The notes under the pieces are model-generated. The model was given only the letters and a program-made list of their open reading frames with translations. It was not told the DNA's origin and did not search any database. A stretch of DNA of 64,000 nucleotides, taken from IMG/VR virus record IMGVR_UViG_3300042367_000228, positions 248,001 through 312,000 of that record. One strand, 5' to 3'. This DNA comes from a virus. Position numbers and translations under genes: made by a program. Shown piece after piece: positions 13,575 to 48,993 of this stretch; the stretch's first letter is position 1; each line of letters opens with the position of its first letter.

Positions 13575-14807
13575 TTACTCTTTTGGTTCTTCTGGAGTTA
13601 CTTCAGTAAAATCTGCACTAACTGTTTCTTCAGTACTCGTTGCTTCAGTAGCAGCAGCTGCAGCAGCGTTGGCTGCATCGGCTTCTTGTTTTTTAGTAAA
13701 TACCGGAGCTGCAGCTTCAAACAGTTTATTAGTTGCTTCAGTAATAGGTTCAACTTCTTCACCGTCTCTTGCAGTTTCTAATGCTAGTAACGCGTCTTCA
13801 AACGCAGTACGTTCTTCTTCAGTTAATTGATCTTTTACTTCGTCATAATCTTTCTTCAATGAATGAGATTGTGCTTCTGCACTGTTACGTGCTTCAATTA
13901 ATGACTTAGCTTTAGCATCTGCTTCTGCATTTTCCTCAGCTTCTTTAACCATACGTTCAATCTCAGCATCTGTTAGTCCTGAATCAGATTTAATAGTAAT
14001 TTTGTTCTCTTTGCCGGTAGTTTTATCTTTAGCACTTACATGCATAATACCGTTAGCATCAATATCAAAAGTTACTTCAATCTGTGGTTGACCGCGTGGA
14101 GCTGCGTCAATCCCTTCTAAGTTAAACTCACCAAGTTGTTTATTGTAACGATACAATTCACGTTCACCTTGACCTACTTTAATAGTAACTGCAGGTTGAT
14201 TATCTTCTGCTGTTGAGAATGTCTGGCTTGCTTTAGTTGGAATGGTTGTATTTTTCTGAATTAACTTAGTAAATACCCCGCCCATTGTTTCAATACCTAA
14301 ACTTAATGGAGTAACGTCAAGTAACAATACGTCAGTTTTATCACCTGCTAATACTGCACCTTGGATAGCAGCACCTGCAGCAACAGCTTCATCTGGATTA
14401 ACGTCTTTACGTGGTGCTTTTCCAAAGAATGCTTCAACAGCTTCTTGTACTTTAGGCATACGTGTTTGACCACCTACTAAAATAACTTCGTCAATATCTG
14501 ACAAACTAACTTTAGCATCAGCAATTGCAATTTTACATGGTTCGATTGAACGTTGTACTAAATCGTCTACTAATGCTTCAAACTTAGCACGAGTTACTGT
14601 TACGTTTAAGTGTTTCGGACCTGTGGCATCTGCAGTAACATATGGTAAGTTAACATTTGTTTGTGCAGTGCTTGACAATTCAATTTTAGCTTTTTCAGCA
14701 GCTTCTTTTAAACGTTGCAACGCCATTGTATCAGATTTAAGATCAACACCTGAGTCTTTCTTAAATTCGTCAATCAAATGATCCATTAATCGTTGGTCAA
14801 AGTCTTC
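13575..14807 (-). CDS. dnaK: DnaK chaperone, exon 2 (C-terminal 410 residues)
   Basis: Second exon of an intron-split dnaK. The protein resumes at GAAGAC (14807), giving [20 protein letters not shown] directly after the LGG that ends exon 1; together 641 residues, against 638 in E. coli. It includes the rest of the nucleotide-binding domain ([35 protein letters not shown]), the linker [16 protein letters not shown], the substrate-binding domain ([17 protein letters not shown]) and the helical lid. The tail lacks the exact EEVKDKK end and finishes EVTPEEPKE. The ATG at 14786 is an internal methionine, not a start. Confidence 0.92.
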
Positions 14808-14866
14808 CAGTTATGTTATCGTTAAGCTCTTTATCTTAACTTCTTATACTTTCATATAAGCTCAGA

Positions 14867-15694
14867 CTATATCTTAATTATAGACTTGCAATTATCAAAG
14901 TGCCATCGTTTCATATTTGACGAATCTCCAATTTTATTGCAATGTGGACAAGTTACTTGTTGTCGTTTTTTATTTTGTTTATATCTTTTTCCAGCAGCTA
15001 TACCAACTACCTCTTTAGAAATTAATCTAGGGTCATCTTTATTAACTGTAAATTTATTACCATTAATATCTTTAACAACTATCCGTCCTGCTGAAGTTGA
15101 TGTATACTGCTTTGATAAAAATTTTTCATCAGTAACTGAAACCATAATAATTTTACCAGTTTCATTAAACACTTTTGTTAACCCTTTTGTAATGCCTACT
15201 AACGATGTATCGTTTTTATTGTCAACTACTACAGTTTCGTTAGTTACGGTTTTCATAACTCGTCTACCGGTTGTGTGACCTGCATATCTATCAGGGTTTG
15301 CATCAAATGTACTTTTTGAAATTTTTACCACTGTACCTAATAAATTATCTTTAGCTACTACTTTATCTATAGAGCATTTACGTATTCGTTCAATACCAAA
15401 GGATGAATGTGTAATTACTCCACGACCACCTTCTGTTAAATTATAAACGTCGTCTCGTTTAATAAAGATCGAATCTACTAATTTAGCTTCATATTCATAT
15501 GCATCATGTTTTGAATTGCAAAATTCTAATATGTCGCGTTTGAAATTAGTTTTTCCATATTTCTTTATTGCTTGTTTTAATAATTTTCCAGACCCTATAT
15601 AGCCGTCGTTAATATTAGTAGTTTCATGTACACCAATATAAATGGTGTTATTAATTAAATTAGTTGTTTTGTAAACAAAATATATCTTATCCAT
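14867..15694 (-). CDS. intron-encoded GIY-YIG homing endonuclease
   Basis: Start at ATG 15694 behind AGGAGGGG. 275 residues: GIY-YIG domain (KIYFVYKTTNLINNTIYIGV, then YIGSGKLLKQAIKKYGKTNF), a middle with NUMOD-like repeats (KVFNETGKIIMVSVTDEKF, IVVKDINGNKFTVNKDDPR), and a C-terminal zinc-finger-like CPHCNKIGDSSNMKRWHFDNC. The same tail ends the endonuclease at 1433-2035. Its stop codon overlaps the catalytic core of the intron, tying the two together. An internal late promoter precedes it, as in T4 intron endonucleases. Confidence 0.88.
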   Translation of the reverse strand: MDKIYFVYKTTNLINNTIYIGVHETTNINDGYIGSGKLLKQAIKKYGKTNFKRDILEFCNSKHDAYEYEAKLVDSIFIKRDDVYNLTEGGRGVITHSSFGIERIRKCSIDKVVAKDNLLGTVVKISKSTFDANPDRYAGHTTGRRVMKTVTNETVVVDNKNDTSLVGITKGLTKVFNETGKIIMVSVTDEKFLSKQYTSTSAGRIVVKDINGNKFTVNKDDPRLISKEVVGIAAGKRYKQNKKRQQVTCPHCNKIGDSSNMKRWHFDNCKSIIKI

Positions 15695-15714
15695 ATCTTC
15701 CCCTCCTATAATTT

Positions 15715-15722
15715 TATTTATC
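15715..15722 (-). promoter_or_regulatory. late promoter inside the dnaK intron
   Basis: GATAAATA on the minus strand, 20 bases before the endonuclease start. T4 intron endonucleases such as I-TevI also have late promoters inside the intron. Confidence 0.5.
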
Positions 15723-15955
15723 ATAAGATTAGAAGATCTATAATTTTCCGCACTCTTGGGTCTTTACTGTCCTATCTGGACTCCATGACCTAGTCGTTGA
15801 ACCTTGAACTTATTCCTAAGTCCCTTGGCTGCTGATTTCCCAATCTATTCATTTTTTAACGTTCGCACTTATCATTACTAATTATGCTGTAGTATGAATA
15901 GCTCTAAGGGGTTCCCAGCAATTCACGGAATTTTTATACGGGAGGCTAATACTTA

Positions 15956-16721
<766 letters not shown>

Positions 16722-41765: not shown

Positions 41766-42545
41766 ATGATATTTATCGATAACAAATACACACGATTATA
41801 TTTTAAAATAATCAATCGCGCTAACTCTAAAAGATTGTCTGAGTATTCAGAAAATCATCATATTATTCCAGAATCATTTTTTATTAATCGATCTAGAAAA
41901 GGACCTGCCGGATGGCTTAATGGAAACCCAGAAGATTCATCAAATATTGTGTCGTTAACTGCAAGAGAACATTTTATTTGTCATTGGTTACTTATTAAAA
42001 TGACTACCGGAGATGCTAAACACAAAATGATATTTGCTATAACGATGATGAAACGTAAAGGCACAAATCAACAAAATAGATATAACACTATGATTACTAG
42101 TAGAGTTTATGCAATTTATAAGGAACAATCTGCTAAAATAAAAAGTGAGATATATTTTGGTCGAGTGCGGAATAAAACACTATATACATTTTGTCATTCT
42201 AATGGAACAGTAGAAACTTGCTCTATACTAGAATTATCTCACAAATATAATCTAGAGCGTTCTAGTATTGCGCATCTTGTTAAAAAACCGTTTGGAAAGC
42301 ATCATGTAAAAGGATGGTCTATTAACCATCCTATATTAGATACTGCTAGAAGTGTATTATATTCCGGCTCAGGAGGACCAAAGTATGATCATACTGTTTA
42401 TTCATTTAAACATAAAAGTGGAATAACTGAACAATGTACTAAGTATGATTTATTTTCTAAATATAATTTAGCTAGAGACGGAATATATTACATTTGTAAT
42501 GGTAAACAAAAATCATCACAAGGATGGTTTTTAGATATCAGGTAA
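41766..42545 (+). CDS. HNH homing endonuclease
   Basis: 259 residues on the opposite strand to its neighbours. HNH-type features: SEYSENHHIIPESFFINRSR, then NPEDSSNIVSLTAREHFICH-WLLIKM, a pattern of free-standing phage HNH enzymes. The C-terminal half holds two copies of a DNA-binding-like module (TLYTFCHSNGTVETCSILEL-SHKYNLERSSIAHL and TVYSFKHKSGITEQCTKYDL-FSKYNLARDGIYYI). It runs into the last 15 bases of nrdB from the other side. Likely a mobile intruder beside nrdB. Confidence 0.85.
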   Translation: MIFIDNKYTRLYFKIINRANSKRLSEYSENHHIIPESFFINRSRKGPAGWLNGNPEDSSNIVSLTAREHFICHWLLIKMTTGDAKHKMIFAITMMKRKGTNQQNRYNTMITSRVYAIYKEQSAKIKSEIYFGRVRNKTLYTFCHSNGTVETCSILELSHKYNLERSSIAHLVKKPFGKHHVKGWSINHPILDTARSVLYSGSGGPKYDHTVYSFKHKSGITEQCTKYDLFSKYNLARDGIYYICNGKQKSSQGWFLDIR

Positions 42546-43625
42546 CTCGGCGTAGTTAACGTCGCCGCCCATTACTCCTACTACATAATTTACACTCTCC
42601 GACTCTTGTAAAGCAGTTTGTTTTTTACTGGGGTCGGAATGTTTTGTAAACCACGGTATAGGTGTTGATTTAGGGGCTATTGCTTTATATTTAATACCAA
42701 CTTCTTTTAAAGCGTGTACTGCAGTATAGTCAACAAATTCTTTTAAGATGTTAGCGTTAAGTCCAATTACTGGACCTTTTAAGAACAAGTAGTCTGCCCA
42801 TTCTTTTTCCTCGCGGATCACATCGAGATACATGCTATAAACTTCTTCTTCACATTCTGCTTTAATTTCGGTAAAACGCGGATCATCTTTAATTACTAAA
42901 TTAATCATGTAAGCAGTCCATTCTTTATGTAACAGCTCATCTTGTAATATAAGTGCAATAATGTTACCGTTACCGATAAACAACTTATTTTCGACCATTG
43001 CTAAACTAGTAGCAAACGATACCATAAATCTAAATGCTTCTAATGCGTAACTTGCATGTAGCGCAAGCCAAATAGCTTTAATATGATCTCTTTCATCTAC
43101 AGGTAATCCGAGTTCTTTTTGACAGTTAAATATGTGTAATTTATTATAGTATCTACCGACACTGCTTGCCATGTCAACAATCGGTGTAGTATCATGAATA
43201 GTATTAAATATCTCTTTTGGAACATTATAGATATTACGAATAATATGACTATAACTGCGACTATGAATATTTGATTCATAGAATCCCCAATTAAGCATTA
43301 ACAGTTCTGCTTCAGGTACACTTACTACAGGTGTAAACACTTGGGTAGGCCCACGTCCTTGTAAGCTGTCTAATGCAGTTTGTCTTAATAAGTTGCTAGT
43401 AAATATATGTTTAACCGCATCACTAGCATCTTTGAAATCATTAGCGTCTTTGCTTAATGAGATCTCTTCCGGAGTCCAAAAGAATCCTCTAGCAGTTGCC
43501 TCGAACTTTTGAATACGTGGATATCGTACTTCTTCAAATCGTTGAATTGTAACTGTTCCGTCTAGAAACAATTTTCTAGACAGATAGTTAGTTTGTTCTC
43601 CTAGGTTATATTGTTCTTCACTCAT
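42531..43625 (-). CDS. nrdB: ribonucleotide reductase class Ia beta subunit
   Basis: Start set at ATG 43625 (AGGTG upstream, overlap with the previous stop). 364 residues against 375 in E. coli. Di-iron ligands and radical Tyr are present: ALDSLQGRGP (Asp), FYESNIHSRSYSHIIRNI (Glu, His, radical Tyr), LEAFRFMVSFATS (Glu), ILQDELLHKEW (Glu, His). Makes the tyrosyl radical for dNTP synthesis with NrdA. The C-terminal contact tail is YAELPDI. Confidence 0.95.
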   Translation of the reverse strand: MSEEQYNLGEQTNYLSRKLFLDGTVTIQRFEEVRYPRIQKFEATARGFFWTPEEISLSKDANDFKDASDAVKHIFTSNLLRQTALDSLQGRGPTQVFTPVVSVPEAELLMLNWGFYESNIHSRSYSHIIRNIYNVPKEIFNTIHDTTPIVDMASSVGRYYNKLHIFNCQKELGLPVDERDHIKAIWLALHASYALEAFRFMVSFATSLAMVENKLFIGNGNIIALILQDELLHKEWTAYMINLVIKDDPRFTEIKAECEEEVYSMYLDVIREEKEWADYLFLKGPVIGLNANILKEFVDYTAVHALKEVGIKYKAIAPKSTPIPWFTKHSDPSKKQTALQESESVNYVVGVMGGDVNYAELPDI

Positions 43626-43836
43626 AGCCGTCACCTGAGTAATTTATACATAACCCGTTTTCTTTATCGATGTAAACACTTAAGATGTCATCGGCAGATA
43701 ATGCAGCAAGTACCGGGCCTTTAACTTCATCTTCGATTATATAATTATCAGGAACACCCCATAATTTTAATTTTTCTTTAAGTCTTTCATCTAACAGTTC
43801 GTCGTTTGTTAGTTCTCTTGTTACAAGTTCGTTCAT
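43618..43836 (-). CDS. hypothetical acidic protein (72 aa)
   Basis: 72 residues: MNELVTRELTNDELLDERLK, then a beta pattern (VPDNYIIEDEVKGPVLAALS, ILSVYIDKENGLCINYSGDG). ATGA overlap with the upstream gene and 8-base overlap with nrdB. Coupled to both; no family recognised. Confidence 0.6.
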   Translation of the reverse strand: MNELVTRELTNDELLDERLKEKLKLWGVPDNYIIEDEVKGPVLAALSADDILSVYIDKENGLCINYSGDGYE

Positions 43837-45001: not shown

Positions 45002-45168
45002 TTCTTAAGTACTCCTAATGATACTAACAGTAAGCATAATGCAATTAGAATCATTTCAAATTTTAATTGAACATGTTCTACTGTGCGTCTTGTTAAATAA
45101 GCAGCCTTCCACTTATAATACGGAAGGCCTCCGTTTTCTATTGCGTGTAAATTAACTAACTGTTTCAT
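44998..45168 (-). CDS. small one-pass membrane protein (56 aa)
   Basis: 56 codons from ATG 45168, starting 17 bases inside the SOD-like gene and ending in ATGA overlap with the next. MKQLVNLHAIENGGLPYYKW then a basic stretch and one hydrophobic helix (MILIALCLLLVSLGVL) near the C-terminus. Topology: cytoplasmic N-terminus with a C-terminal anchor. Confidence 0.6.
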   Translation of the reverse strand: MKQLVNLHAIENGGLPYYKWKAAYLTRRTVEHVQLKFEMILIALCLLLVSLGVLKK

Positions 45169-45703
45169 TTATGTAGTTCCAGTTTATTATTTTCCATTGA
45201 TTTTCTAAGTACTTTTTCTTGTCTGATTGATAGTCTAACGCCCATGAATGTTCCCACCAATCAACTAACAATACAATGTCTTTTTTAATAGCATGATTAG
45301 TTATTGTTTTGATCTTGCCATCTTTAGCAAGATAGACCCAACCACTGCCTTGTATGCCCATTGCTACTTTTAAAAACTCTTCTTTAAACTTATCAAAAGT
45401 TTTATAATGTGTTTCAATTAAATCTAAAACTTTGCCAACTGGTTTGTTTAAGTTGCCAGTTGACTCTTGATATTGTTGGAATAAGATATTGTGTAAAAAT
45501 ACACCTGCTTCATTAAACACAGGATCACCTTCACCTGCATTATAACGCTTTGCGTATGTTTTAGCAAGACGTTCATAATGATAATCTAATGTTGCTTTTG
45601 ATATAGCAGGACTTAACTCATCCATTCCGTATGGTAGAGGATCTATTTTTAATGATGCAGGTTTACCTTCAGTTATGAATTGCTTAATAAAACTATAGCT
45701 CAT
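45152..45703 (-). CDS. Fe/Mn superoxide dismutase-like protein with N-terminal tag
   Basis: 183 residues. The four metal ligands of Fe/Mn SOD can be aligned: His42 (LDYHYERLAKTY), His71 (GVFLHNILFQQY), Asp148 and His152 (LLVDWWEHSWALDYQSDKKK). The usual HH after the first ligand (GKHHxTY) is replaced by LA, so the outer gate residue His30 of E. coli SodB is missing. Ahead of the SOD start lies MSYSFIKQFITEGKP, which resembles T4 capsid-targeting sequences (MKTYQEFIAEA in IPIII) with I-T-E at 10-12. It may be a virion-packaged SOD. Lies between nrdA and small genes. Confidence 0.75.
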   Translation of the reverse strand: MSYSFIKQFITEGKPASLKIDPLPYGMDELSPAISKATLDYHYERLAKTYAKRYNAGEGDPVFNEAGVFLHNILFQQYQESTGNLNKPVGKVLDLIETHYKTFDKFKEEFLKVAMGIQGSGWVYLAKDGKIKTITNHAIKKDIVLLVDWWEHSWALDYQSDKKKYLENQWKIINWNYINETVS

Positions 45704-46662
45704 AGCTTACAGGCCTCGCAGGATTCTTCATCGTCTTCAATAATTGCACTAGGTAAATCAACTTCGGCTTCTTCTTTACTACCTGTTTTATCAATTAAAC
45801 TATAGTAGAAAGTTTTCAAACCCCAATAGTGACCTAACATTAAGTTTTTAGCAATTAGTGTAGTTGGGACTTTTCTACCTTCAAAGTGTCTAGGTGAATA
45901 AAATGTATTTGTGCTAATACTTTGATCTACGTATGCAGCCAATACAGCAGCAGTTTTCAAATAACCTACACAATCAGTTTGTTCCCACATAAGTTGATAT
46001 TTGTTTTTCAATTTATGATATTCCGGAACTACTTGTGTAAGTGAACCAGCTTTTGATTCTTTAACTTGAATAAGTTGCATTGGCATTTCAATTCCATTAG
46101 TTGAATTAATTACAACTGAACTTGATTCTACTGGAGCTATAGCCATTTGAGTCGCATTTCGTACACCGTATTTTTTCATTTCAACACGCAATGGTTCCCA
46201 ATCAAGTTCTGGTGTAAAATCAGTCAATTCATTAACACCGTCTGCACGTAGTTCCCATGGAAATATACCTTGTCCGTATCGAGTTTTATCACTATCTAAA
46301 CATGGTCCACGCTCCTTAGCCAGTTCAACCGATATTTCAGTAGTATAAAATGCTAAATGTTCCATCCAGCTTTTAACTTCAGCAAGCATATCTGCGTCTC
46401 CGTATTTAAAATTGCGTTTAGCTGCCCAGTATGCTAAATTTGTAACTCCAATTCCTAATGGTCGAATTTCATCATTACTTAGTTTACTGTGGATTGACAG
46501 ATAATCTTGGTAATCTAAAATATTGTTTAAACTGCGGTGAAGAATACGACAAGCTCTGCGCATATCTTCCGGATTTCTAAAACTCCCCCAATTAATACTG
46601 CCTAAGGTGCATAAGGCTATTTTTGGAACTTTACGCACACATTCTTTTTTAATTATTTTCAT
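45700..46662 (-). CDS. nrdA: ribonucleotide reductase class Ia alpha subunit, C-terminal piece
   Basis: 320 residues. After a 13-residue unrelated start (MKIIKKECVRKVP), NrdA resumes at KIALCTLGSINWGSF with the active-site Cys corresponding to E. coli Cys462. Other NrdA motifs follow: RPLGIGVTNLAYWAAKRNF, APVESSSVVINSTNGIEMP, LKTFYYSLIDKTG with the radical-transfer Tyr pair, and the C-terminal SCEACKL redox cysteines. The N-terminal half is encoded at 47464-48993. The first residues resemble the beginning of split-intein C-halves, but the catalytic end of such an intein is absent. Confidence 0.9.
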   Translation of the reverse strand: MKIIKKECVRKVPKIALCTLGSINWGSFRNPEDMRRACRILHRSLNNILDYQDYLSIHSKLSNDEIRPLGIGVTNLAYWAAKRNFKYGDADMLAEVKSWMEHLAFYTTEISVELAKERGPCLDSDKTRYGQGIFPWELRADGVNELTDFTPELDWEPLRVEMKKYGVRNATQMAIAPVESSSVVINSTNGIEMPMQLIQVKESKAGSLTQVVPEYHKLKNKYQLMWEQTDCVGYLKTAAVLAAYVDQSISTNTFYSPRHFEGRKVPTTLIAKNLMLGHYWGLKTFYYSLIDKTGSKEEAEVDLPSAIIEDDEESCEACKL

Positions 46663-47425
46663 GATTTATTGTTCTTCCTATACGCCAATTTGTATTTTCT
46701 AAAAGATACTCATTAATAGACGATGAGTCAATCCTAATATTAGTGTACCCATCTGTTATCCATCTCCATTTTGAAGACTGTATTGATAACAAACTTTTTT
46801 GTGTTGGGCTTCTATAATGCGGGTTGTATTTAACTTGTTCAGTGGCAGTTAATGTAGCGTTAACTAAGTTAATCAAATCTGTATGATTTTTAATTCCTCG
46901 ATTAGATATCAATCTACTGCTAATAGATAGCTCAGATTTTAATACAGAATCAATTTCATTTCGAAGTAAATAACTACCGTATTTGAAATTTTCATGTATA
47001 TAATTAACTATAGTGTTAATAATATCGATAGCTGTAATATCAGGCCGAGCATTTCCGTTATTCATACCTGCACTTAGCTTACTTCTATTTTTACCCCATT
47101 CTATTAATTGTTTTTTAGAATATCGTTCTTTTGTGTTGCCGCCATCACCGCCACGGGTCATATTGTACCCGTAGCTAAACGTATCAAGCAAGTCTATATA
47201 ATATATTTCTTTTGATTTTGCATCAGATTGTGTACTACATTCATCTAATTTTTCAGTTATAATAGTATTTTCACCATATTTTCTAATTGCACGATGAAAA
47301 TATGTATCAGAACCGTTTCTACTATCTTGAATGTGTTCGTCTAATCGAACGTTAATATTTTTTTCAGTGTATCCTATGTATTTTTTGTTATTAATAGTGT
47401 GACAATATATATTATAAGTTTTCAT
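46649..47425 (-). CDS. GIY-YIG homing endonuclease between nrdA pieces
   Basis: 258 residues: NIYCHTINNKKYIGYTEKNI (GIY-YIG), RLDEHIQDSRNGSDTYFHRA-IRKYGE, a Glu in YIDLLDTFSYGYNMTRGGDG, and basic DNA-binding segments behind. The 3' end overlaps the start of the C-terminal nrdA piece by 14 bases. A similar arrangement (mobE in split nrdA) is known in Aeromonas phage Aeh1. Own late-type promoter and GAGGAAG ribosome binding site. Confidence 0.88.
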   Translation of the reverse strand: MKTYNIYCHTINNKKYIGYTEKNINVRLDEHIQDSRNGSDTYFHRAIRKYGENTIITEKLDECSTQSDAKSKEIYYIDLLDTFSYGYNMTRGGDGGNTKERYSKKQLIEWGKNRSKLSAGMNNGNARPDITAIDIINTIVNYIHENFKYGSYLLRNEIDSVLKSELSISSRLISNRGIKNHTDLINLVNATLTATEQVKYNPHYRSPTQKSLLSIQSSKWRWITDGYTNIRIDSSSINEYLLENTNWRIGRTINHENN

Positions 47426-47445
47426 AAATATCTTCCTCTTGCTTG

Positions 47446-47453
47446 TATTTAGC
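47446..47453 (-). promoter_or_regulatory. late-type promoter
   Basis: GCTAAATA on the minus strand, 20 bases before the endonuclease start, just after the stop of the N-terminal nrdA piece. Confidence 0.45.
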
Positions 47454-47463
47454 AGAGATACTA

Positions 47464-48993
47464 CTACCCACTTATTAAAAGATTATCAATATCGTCATCT
47501 TCAGACAACTCTCGAACTTTCTTTTTCTCACCTGATTTTAATAATACCGTGTGTTCTCCTGCTAATGTTACTTCCTCTCCAGTGTCAAGTGTGAGTTTAA
47601 ATCCACCTTCATCGGATAACGAATTAAACGGTGCAGTTGGTAAAAGTATTTCGCAGCATAAATTACTTTGATAAATTGTATGCCATAACGGATCAAATGG
47701 TCCTTGCTTAATTACGTTATCTATAAAGACTAAGTAGATGCGCCCGGTGTCAGTTCGTTCTTTTAGGAGTCCTCCTTTGAATACTTCTTCCGCAGACATG
47801 GTCTTCTTCCGAACTCCTGTATTTTTTTCATACTGTAGGTACAGTTTTTCAAAGAGAGCTGTATCAGTGTAAAACGCTTCGTATAAGTCTGGAACTTCAT
47901 TAGGATCAAAAAATGTTATGTTTTCTTTGTTTTTAAATCTACGCCAAAAGAACGCGCTTAATACAACGCTGTAATCTAAATGACGCACCCGTGTTTCATC
48001 TGTGCCTTGATTGTTTTTAAGTACAATTAAGTCGTCGAACTGATAATGCCAAATCGGATATGTTACAGTAGCACTAGCATTTCTAATACCACCTTGTGAA
48101 CAGCAACGCAAGTCACCAAACCATTTCTTTAAAAATGGAATCATACCTGTGTGCATAATTTCACCACCGCGTATAGGACTTCCTAGTGCGCGTACACGAC
48201 CAATTTCTAAACCTATGCCAGCACGTTTGCTAGCATATTTTGCCATCATCTCGCCACTAGCAAATATAGAATCCAAATCGTCATCACTGCGTATGAGAAC
48301 GCAGCTGCTGAATTGTTTAGTTGGAGTTCCGAGCCCAGCAAGAACGGGTGTAGCAAGAGTAAATAAGCCATCGGATGCAGCATTATAATATTCCTTAATA
48401 TATTTCATTCTAGCTGCATTTGGTTCTTCCTTATGGAACACAGTTGCAGCTGCAATCATATACCTAACTTGTGGAGTTTCGTAAATGTCTTTAGTAGATC
48501 GATTACGGACTAAGTATTTCTCAATAAGCTGTTCAATTGCAGCATATGAGTAAGTTTCATCTTTTGAATGATCAAGCATGTCATTCATTTTGTTCCATTC
48601 TTCAGTTGAATACCACTCTAATAACTCTGGTGTGTATAATCCAACTTCGATGTTCTTTTTAACTATTGTAAATAGATGCGGTGGCTCGTATTGGCCGTAT
48701 ACATCTTTGCGGAGCATAGACAAACGCTGTTTGCCTGCAACGTATTGATAATTTGTATGACCTACATCTGGGTTGGCGTCAACATCAATTAAGTTAACGA
48801 TTGCTCGCAGTGTAATTTCGTCAATTTCAGATGTAGTAATATTATCGTAAAATTGTGGCTGGCTTTTAATTTCGATCATTGATTGACTAACATCGGCAAT
48901 TCCACTGCAAATCTTTGCAATCTGCGCCTGCCATTTGTCAATTGTTAGTTCTACTTTAGTGCCATTTCTTTTTGTAACTGTTATTTTATTCAT
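47464..48993 (-). CDS. nrdA: ribonucleotide reductase class Ia alpha subunit, N-terminal piece with intein-like tail
   Basis: 509 residues: ATP-cone (MNKITVTKRNGTKVELTIDK), FSSCVLIRSDDDLDSI (Cys of E. coli Cys225), and QSNLCCEILLPTAPFNSLSD containing the Asn/Cys/Glu of the active site (437/439/441). After DEGG the NrdA sequence is replaced by 45 residues: FKLTLDTGEEVTLAGEHTVL then LKSGEKKKVRELSEDDDI. These match block B of gp41-1-type split inteins (YKITLEDGKEIxxxxEHLF). Block A with the first splicing Cys is absent, so normal protein splicing is unlikely. Confidence 0.9.
   Translation of the reverse strand: MNKITVTKRNGTKVELTIDKWQAQIAKICSGIADVSQSMIEIKSQPQFYDNITTSEIDEITLRAIVNLIDVDANPDVGHTNYQYVAGKQRLSMLRKDVYGQYEPPHLFTIVKKNIEVGLYTPELLEWYSTEEWNKMNDMLDHSKDETYSYAAIEQLIEKYLVRNRSTKDIYETPQVRYMIAAATVFHKEEPNAARMKYIKEYYNAASDGLFTLATPVLAGLGTPTKQFSSCVLIRSDDDLDSIFASGEMMAKYASKRAGIGLEIGRVRALGSPIRGGEIMHTGMIPFLKKWFGDLRCCSQGGIRNASATVTYPIWHYQFDDLIVLKNNQGTDETRVRHLDYSVVLSAFFWRRFKNKENITFFDPNEVPDLYEAFYTDTALFEKLYLQYEKNTGVRKKTMSAEEVFKGGLLKERTDTGRIYLVFIDNVIKQGPFDPLWHTIYQSNLCCEILLPTAPFNSLSDEGGFKLTLDTGEEVTLAGEHTVLLKSGEKKKVRELSEDDDIDNLLISG

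Follow-up and report, generated by a model that had tools for sequence, protein, structure and literature searches.

How does a phage live with a break in nrdA when the sequence left at the break looks like part of an intein that can no longer splice? The question is raised by a stretch of 64,000 nucleotides (hereafter the window), positions 248,001 to 312,000 of the 372,016-base IMG/VR virus record IMGVR_UViG_3300042367_000228, in which the ribonucleotide reductase (RNR) protein NrdA is encoded in two pieces, the first ending in an added tail and the second starting with an added head. We consider it likely that each NrdA chain is a functional subunit in its own right, that the two come together unligated through a docking module formed by the intein-derived tail and the head, and that this module is mobile as a cassette.

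The split nrdA and its relatives

Open reading frame (ORF) calls and Pfam searches place NrdA on the minus strand as two ORFs with a GIY-YIG homing-endonuclease gene between them, and alignment to Protein Data Bank (PDB) structures confirms this layout, which a sequence-only reading of the window had proposed. In alignment with Escherichia coli NrdA, N-piece residues 3-465 reach as far as residue 457/458 or thereabouts, and the match continues from residue 458 with C-piece residues 14-319; the two pieces together thus cover the E. coli protein without a gap at the break, and no part of the enzyme has been lost. What has been added is 46 residues on the N-piece (464-509; the 45 counted earlier if one starts at Phe465) and 13 on the C-piece. 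The break lies in the loop between the thiyl Cys (C439-equivalent) and the C462 strand. As the earlier reading held, the active-site cysteines are on different chains, the C225- and C439-equivalents on the N-piece and the C462-equivalent with the C-terminal pair on the C-piece, which also carries the Tyr-Tyr pair of the radical path; these positions follow from E. coli alignments, and the roles of the Cys and Tyr residues we take partly from established knowledge of the E. coli enzyme. The endonuclease gene overlaps the start of the C-piece by 14 nt.

The features of the locus are listed below; IntN and IntC stand for the N- and C-terminal halves of a split intein, and Hint for the Hedgehog/intein fold.

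47464..48993, minus strand: NrdA N-piece, 509 aa, with the ATP cone, the all-alpha domain and the initial portion of the barrel, including the C225- and C439-equivalents (ORF, Pfam, PDB alignment)
47467..47604, minus strand: putative docking tail at the N-piece C-terminus, 46 aa, GFKLTLDTGEEVTLAGEHTVLLKSGEKKKVRELSEDDDIDNLLISG, probably derived from an intein N-half (conserved in 37 loci; matches IntN 69-102; five predicted strands and Hint top fold matches)
46649..47425, minus strand: GIY-YIG homing-endonuclease gene in the break (PF01541, E 4.5e-9; PHROG homing endonuclease; 55% identical to the gene of locus L166)
45700..46662, minus strand: NrdA C-piece, 320 aa, with the remaining barrel, the C462-equivalent, the Tyr-Tyr pair and the C-terminal CxxC (ORF, Pfam, PDB alignment)
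46624..46662, minus strand: putative docking head at the C-piece N-terminus, 13 aa, MKIIKKECVRKVP, net charge +4 (present in every split relative with the C-piece on the contig)
47605..47665, minus strand: about 60 nt upstream of the insert that seem to have arrived together with it, the recombination edge lying near codon NLC (identity drop against the uninterrupted L003)
42531..43634, minus strand: nrdB, small subunit and expected partner, lying downstream with the same orientation (ORF; family assigned by reading the sequence)

Scans with each piece returned two kinds of close relatives, uninterrupted NrdA (...LDDxxGRIALC...) and split NrdA, in which the N-piece ends as ...LDDEGEFKLTLDNGQEITLPGQHKVLLxNGEKKKVRELTEDDDIxDLL-stop. 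Searching with the tail alignment gave 37 loci, all from uncultured phages. NrdA is split in all 37, and every C-piece present on a contig begins with M[K/R][I/V/L]IKKE or a near variant. None carries the tail on an unbroken NrdA, so that the check which the earlier reading had set for its own refutation turned out in its favor. Since tail and head are both kept across these relatives, their presence is not a matter of chance. The tail was absent from the prokaryote genomes searched, gave nothing convincing against PDB sequences and, among isolated phages, matched only Bacillus phage SP-15 at chance level (E 3).

What fills the break varies. An endonuclease of the window's kind occurs also in L166 (the two genes being 55% identical), three other GIY-YIG types are found among the tail-bearing loci, and L043, L170-L174 and L176 have an HNH gene on the opposite strand. 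L010 and L136 have no endonuclease at all: the N-piece stop and the C-piece start overlap as ATGA, the L010 insert of about 173 nt is entirely coding, and the tail is retained. The endonuclease, being exchangeable or missing, is therefore not needed to maintain the break. We estimated the ratio of non-synonymous to synonymous differences (pN/pS) across 12 split loci, roughly, because the synonymous ones approach saturation. The tail gives 0.206, the N-piece core 0.176 and the C-piece core 0.239; the value of 0.51 for the head comes from only 12 codons that partly overlap the endonuclease gene. The tail is clearly under purifying selection and behaves like NrdA itself.

Mobility of the split state

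The NrdA cores of the split phages do not form a single clade, this topology being rejected by the approximately unbiased test (p-AU 0.0023), and the window's core clusters with the uninterrupted L003, L007 and L014 (support 100/97). Identity between the window and L003 is 99% in the 240 nt that lead up to YQS and drops to 57% in the last 60 nt before the insert. L003 and its sister L007 are equally similar in both stretches (0.79 and 0.81), and since L003 has kept its sister's sequence throughout, the window's copy is the one that changed; its last 60 nt before the insert resemble those of split phages (0.65-0.73). L166 is the closest relative of both the window's tail (80%) and its endonuclease (55%), yet its core is only 69% identical. 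Judged from these trees and identities, the split state is horizontally mobile between phages. The identity pattern is what homing with co-conversion of the flanks would leave, and the endonuclease may have been the driver. Most likely, the module could no longer splice when the window's lineage acquired it through recombination into an uninterrupted nrdA.

Probable intein ancestry and splicing

The sequence-only reading had likened the tail to intein block B, and the comparison of profiles bears this out. A tail profile aligned to a profile of bona fide IntN sequences, built from split inteins found in nrdA of related phages at SNLC^CEI, a site upstream of the window's break, over 34 ungapped columns with an E-value of 2.9e-4. 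Tail residues 6-39 correspond to IntN 69-102 of 106, both sequences ending within 4-7 residues of the match; none of 300 column-shuffled controls scored as high, and neither the reversed tail nor the tail of the type found in phage Aeh1 matched the IntN profile. Pfam family PF14890 (Intein_splicing) is matched by seven of eight tails, all below threshold (best E 0.0065; window 0.07). Modeled alone with AlphaFold, the tail forms five strands with a mean predicted local distance difference test score (pLDDT) of 79, and a PDB fold search with this model ranks the Npu DnaE split intein best, followed by Hedgehog Hint (0.7 Å over 23 residues, 48% identity) and, lower, BIL2 Hint; the model of the whole N-piece is poor (pLDDT 43). 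The break in NrdA coincides with the natural split site of inteins. On profile, register and predicted fold, the origin of the tail as the C-terminal half of an IntN is well supported.

What a splicing intein needs is gone, as had been noted for blocks A, F and G. In all 15 aligned tails the insert starts with E or G and then F, leaving no Cys or Ser nucleophile and no block A. In the TxxH motif of block B the His is kept and the Thr is replaced, by Pro in 13 tails, by Ala in the window and by Leu in L166. The 13-residue head runs straight into the KIALC of NrdA, with neither blocks F and G nor a His-Asn, and the 372-kb record holds no other match to Intein_splicing. Set against a split intein, the module has the Hint homology and lacks the nucleophile, the complete TxxH and blocks F and G. 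Tail and head thus appear unable to splice by any known route, and ligation of the pieces is very unlikely because all splicing residues are missing in every member. The earlier conclusion that splicing has been lost therefore stands, and its companion, that NrdA would function as a non-covalent two-piece enzyme, is supported as the likely outcome.

Several observations weigh against this account of intein descent and movement. No fold-search E-value for the tail is individually significant, as is to be expected for 46 residues, and the similarity of the tail to Hint falls below the Pfam cut-off. For the head, the proposed likeness to the start of IntC sequences held for one split-intein family (KIIKRE..VFDI; 55% over 11 columns, 0 of 300 shuffles as high), a family itself chosen by its KIIKxE motif, and did not hold for the IntC sequences of the local SNLC^C inteins, which show no similarity. 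The DNA pattern MKIIK[KR]E..V[FY]DI had no match; a relaxed pattern found 12 stretches, 11 of them IntC by sequence, but as that pattern includes intein block F, all it shows is that starting with KIIK[RK]E is normal for an IntC. An IntC origin of the head is thus suggestive. As to the direction of change, counts of changes on the tree cannot by themselves separate gain from loss of the split state.

The sub-threshold Pfam scores leave room for the view that docking is real and the tail a convergent beta-structured peptide of other origin, the more so as the Ig-like family Big_4 also matches five of eight tails (best E 0.013). We think this unlikely in light of the ungapped IntN register that includes the end of the sequence, the shuffle control, the Hint folds at the top of the structural matches and the location of the break at a natural intein split site. 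Another possibility is that a split intein broke and lost splicing here, leaving tail and head as neutral remnants irrelevant to NrdA function. The missing block A, TxxH Thr and blocks F and G are what decay would produce; conservation of the tail in 37 loci, a pN/pS like that of NrdA and retention of the tail in L010 and L136, which have no endonuclease, are not, and with purifying selection largely refuting it we hold decay to be quite improbable. Nor is there support for the more specific earlier view, in which an intein decayed within this very phage and left the extras behind, given the recombination edge and a conserved module shared among these loci.

Two further explanations would still deliver a joined NrdA. 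In one, an unusual trans-splicing reaction or a separate helper protein ligates the pieces. The tail is indeed related to IntN, and relatives carry true split inteins about 17-18 codons upstream in the same gene, but without a nucleophile at the tail start or a His-Asn before the extein, with the TxxH Thr replaced in 15 of 15 tails and with no second Intein_splicing match in the record, this has very little to recommend it. In the other, the halves are united in the RNA by a group I intron or during translation by ribosomal bypass. The window offers a precedent in its dnaK, where a group I intron carries a GIY-YIG gene; the nrdA insert, however, has no Rfam match up to E 1 (E 1.7e-8 for the dnaK intron), the tail is under selection at the protein level, and the short L010 insert is coding throughout with its ATGA overlap, so that we regard joining by this means as scarcely credible. 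We thus retain the two-chain enzyme with an intein-derived docking module.

Other elements of the neighborhood were also recorded. The gene dnaK (13575-16648, minus strand) is interrupted by the group I intron, which matches RF00028 at a score below the Rfam gathering score; its GIY-YIG gene lies at 14867-15724, and the exons read TFLGG, then onward. The same virus record has two more GIY-YIG matches, G000:C1:233120-233335 and 249844-249996, one of them sub-threshold. Inside the RNR cluster, the stop of the NrdA C-piece is overlapped by an ORF (45152-45703, minus strand) whose product looks by eye like an iron/manganese superoxide dismutase.

A proposed docking clip and its parallels

The charges of the two added segments suggest how they could act. 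Tails carry a net charge of -1 to -6, concentrated at their end, and heads one of +2 to +5. In natural split inteins, an anionic IntN captures a cationic IntC before both collapse into the Hint fold (PMC11766414), so the parts preserved here are the capture parts, and the opposite charges point to a permanent docking clip made out of a split intein's capture half. In the mechanism we propose, the tail would have lost the catalytic N-terminal half of IntN and kept the part that captures the C-fragment, and the C-piece would have lost the catalytic end of the intein C-fragment. Tail and head would sit in the turn between the segment after the C439-equivalent and the C462 strand, where the acidic-ended tail and the basic head would pull the halves together and the barrel would close, that is, capture without chemistry. 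The radical path would then cross between the C-piece, which carries its Tyr-Tyr pair, and the N-piece, which carries the thiyl Cys. Recombination driven by the endonuclease would bring tail, endonuclease gene and head as one cassette into an uninterrupted nrdA, and the endonucleases could be swapped or lost afterwards.

A close parallel is Aeromonas phage Aeh1 (nrdA-a / mobE / nrdA-b), in which NrdA is broken in the same loop, with an endonuclease gene between the pieces and tail and head extras that do not splice. Its RNR is active as an (alpha-a + alpha-b)2 beta2 complex (PMC3267527; PMC2988022). The window shares with the Aeh1 type the two-ORF split in this loop and conserved extras without splicing signals; it does not share homology of tail or head. 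Net charge is +6 for the basic Aeh1 tail and -10 for the acidic Aeh1 head, the reverse of the window's charges, the sequences do not align, the break is a few residues earlier, and mobE is an HNH gene in contrast to the window's GIY-YIG gene. The Aeh1 tails, in the 2011 work of Crona and colleagues, are said to be essential interaction domains. We found Aeh1-type tails in 30 other IMG/VR loci, with the acidic head wherever the C-piece is on the contig; there NrdA is broken at almost the same position, some breaks holding endonucleases and others none, and the endonucleases of the two clip types are related, being up to 64% identical over their length.

The split inteins of fractured phage genes, reportedly described by Dassa and colleagues in 2009, form the second point of comparison. 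Like the SNLC^C inteins of related phages and the KIIKRE..VFDI C-halves, the window's module has a break at the natural split site with an endonuclease between the halves; its tail is homologous to the last ~40 residues of IntN, and its head resembles the beginning of one IntC family. It differs in having neither catalytic residues nor extein junctions and in keeping only the Hint middle. Other enzymes in pieces that assemble non-covalently are the split NrdJ of Pseudomonas, the split gp43 of phage 25 and the split topoisomerase of T4, for which the text consulted in PMC2988022 and PMC3267527 describes no intein-derived docking peptides.

Among the relatives, further combinations of inteins and breaks were seen in NrdA. 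L131/L135/L219 and L202-L217 have split inteins at the thiyl Cys (SNLC^CEI), whose halves are in some cases separated by an endonuclease gene and in others not, and L172, L176, L179 and L180 have a cis mini-intein at SNLC^CEI with the docking tail downstream. In L210 / L256 (IMGVR_UViG_3300002307_002202), NrdA is apparently spread over at least four genes: an upstream piece begins with intein-like sequence, and the parts include an SNLC^C split intein accompanied by an HNH gene, an ORF of 78 aa (intein C-half, ~17 NrdA residues and an Aeh1-type tail), a GIY-YIG gene and an acidic-head C-piece.

We class the arrangement with the Aeh1-type 'genes in pieces' RNR, the new element being a clip apparently taken from a split intein. 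On balance, we lean towards the view that the capture half of a split intein, its chemistry removed, was exapted as a permanent clip and, together with a homing endonuclease, makes up a mobile 'break-and-clip' cassette, which would split an essential gene in each new host yet supply the means to reassemble its product. It would be the second clip, independently evolved, at the same NrdA loop after the Aeh1 type, with related endonucleases in both. A long-range radical path across a chain border would be of interest for RNR mechanism, and the tail-head pair is a candidate for a small natural non-splicing heterodimer tag. That two unrelated clips occupy one NrdA loop implies a recurrent solution, and this makes the neutralizing of gene breakage by docking peptides testable by comparison. 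Our findings suggest an evolutionary road from splicing inteins to lasting two-subunit enzymes, along which a selfish element is tolerated and, of the intein, the binding function alone is kept.

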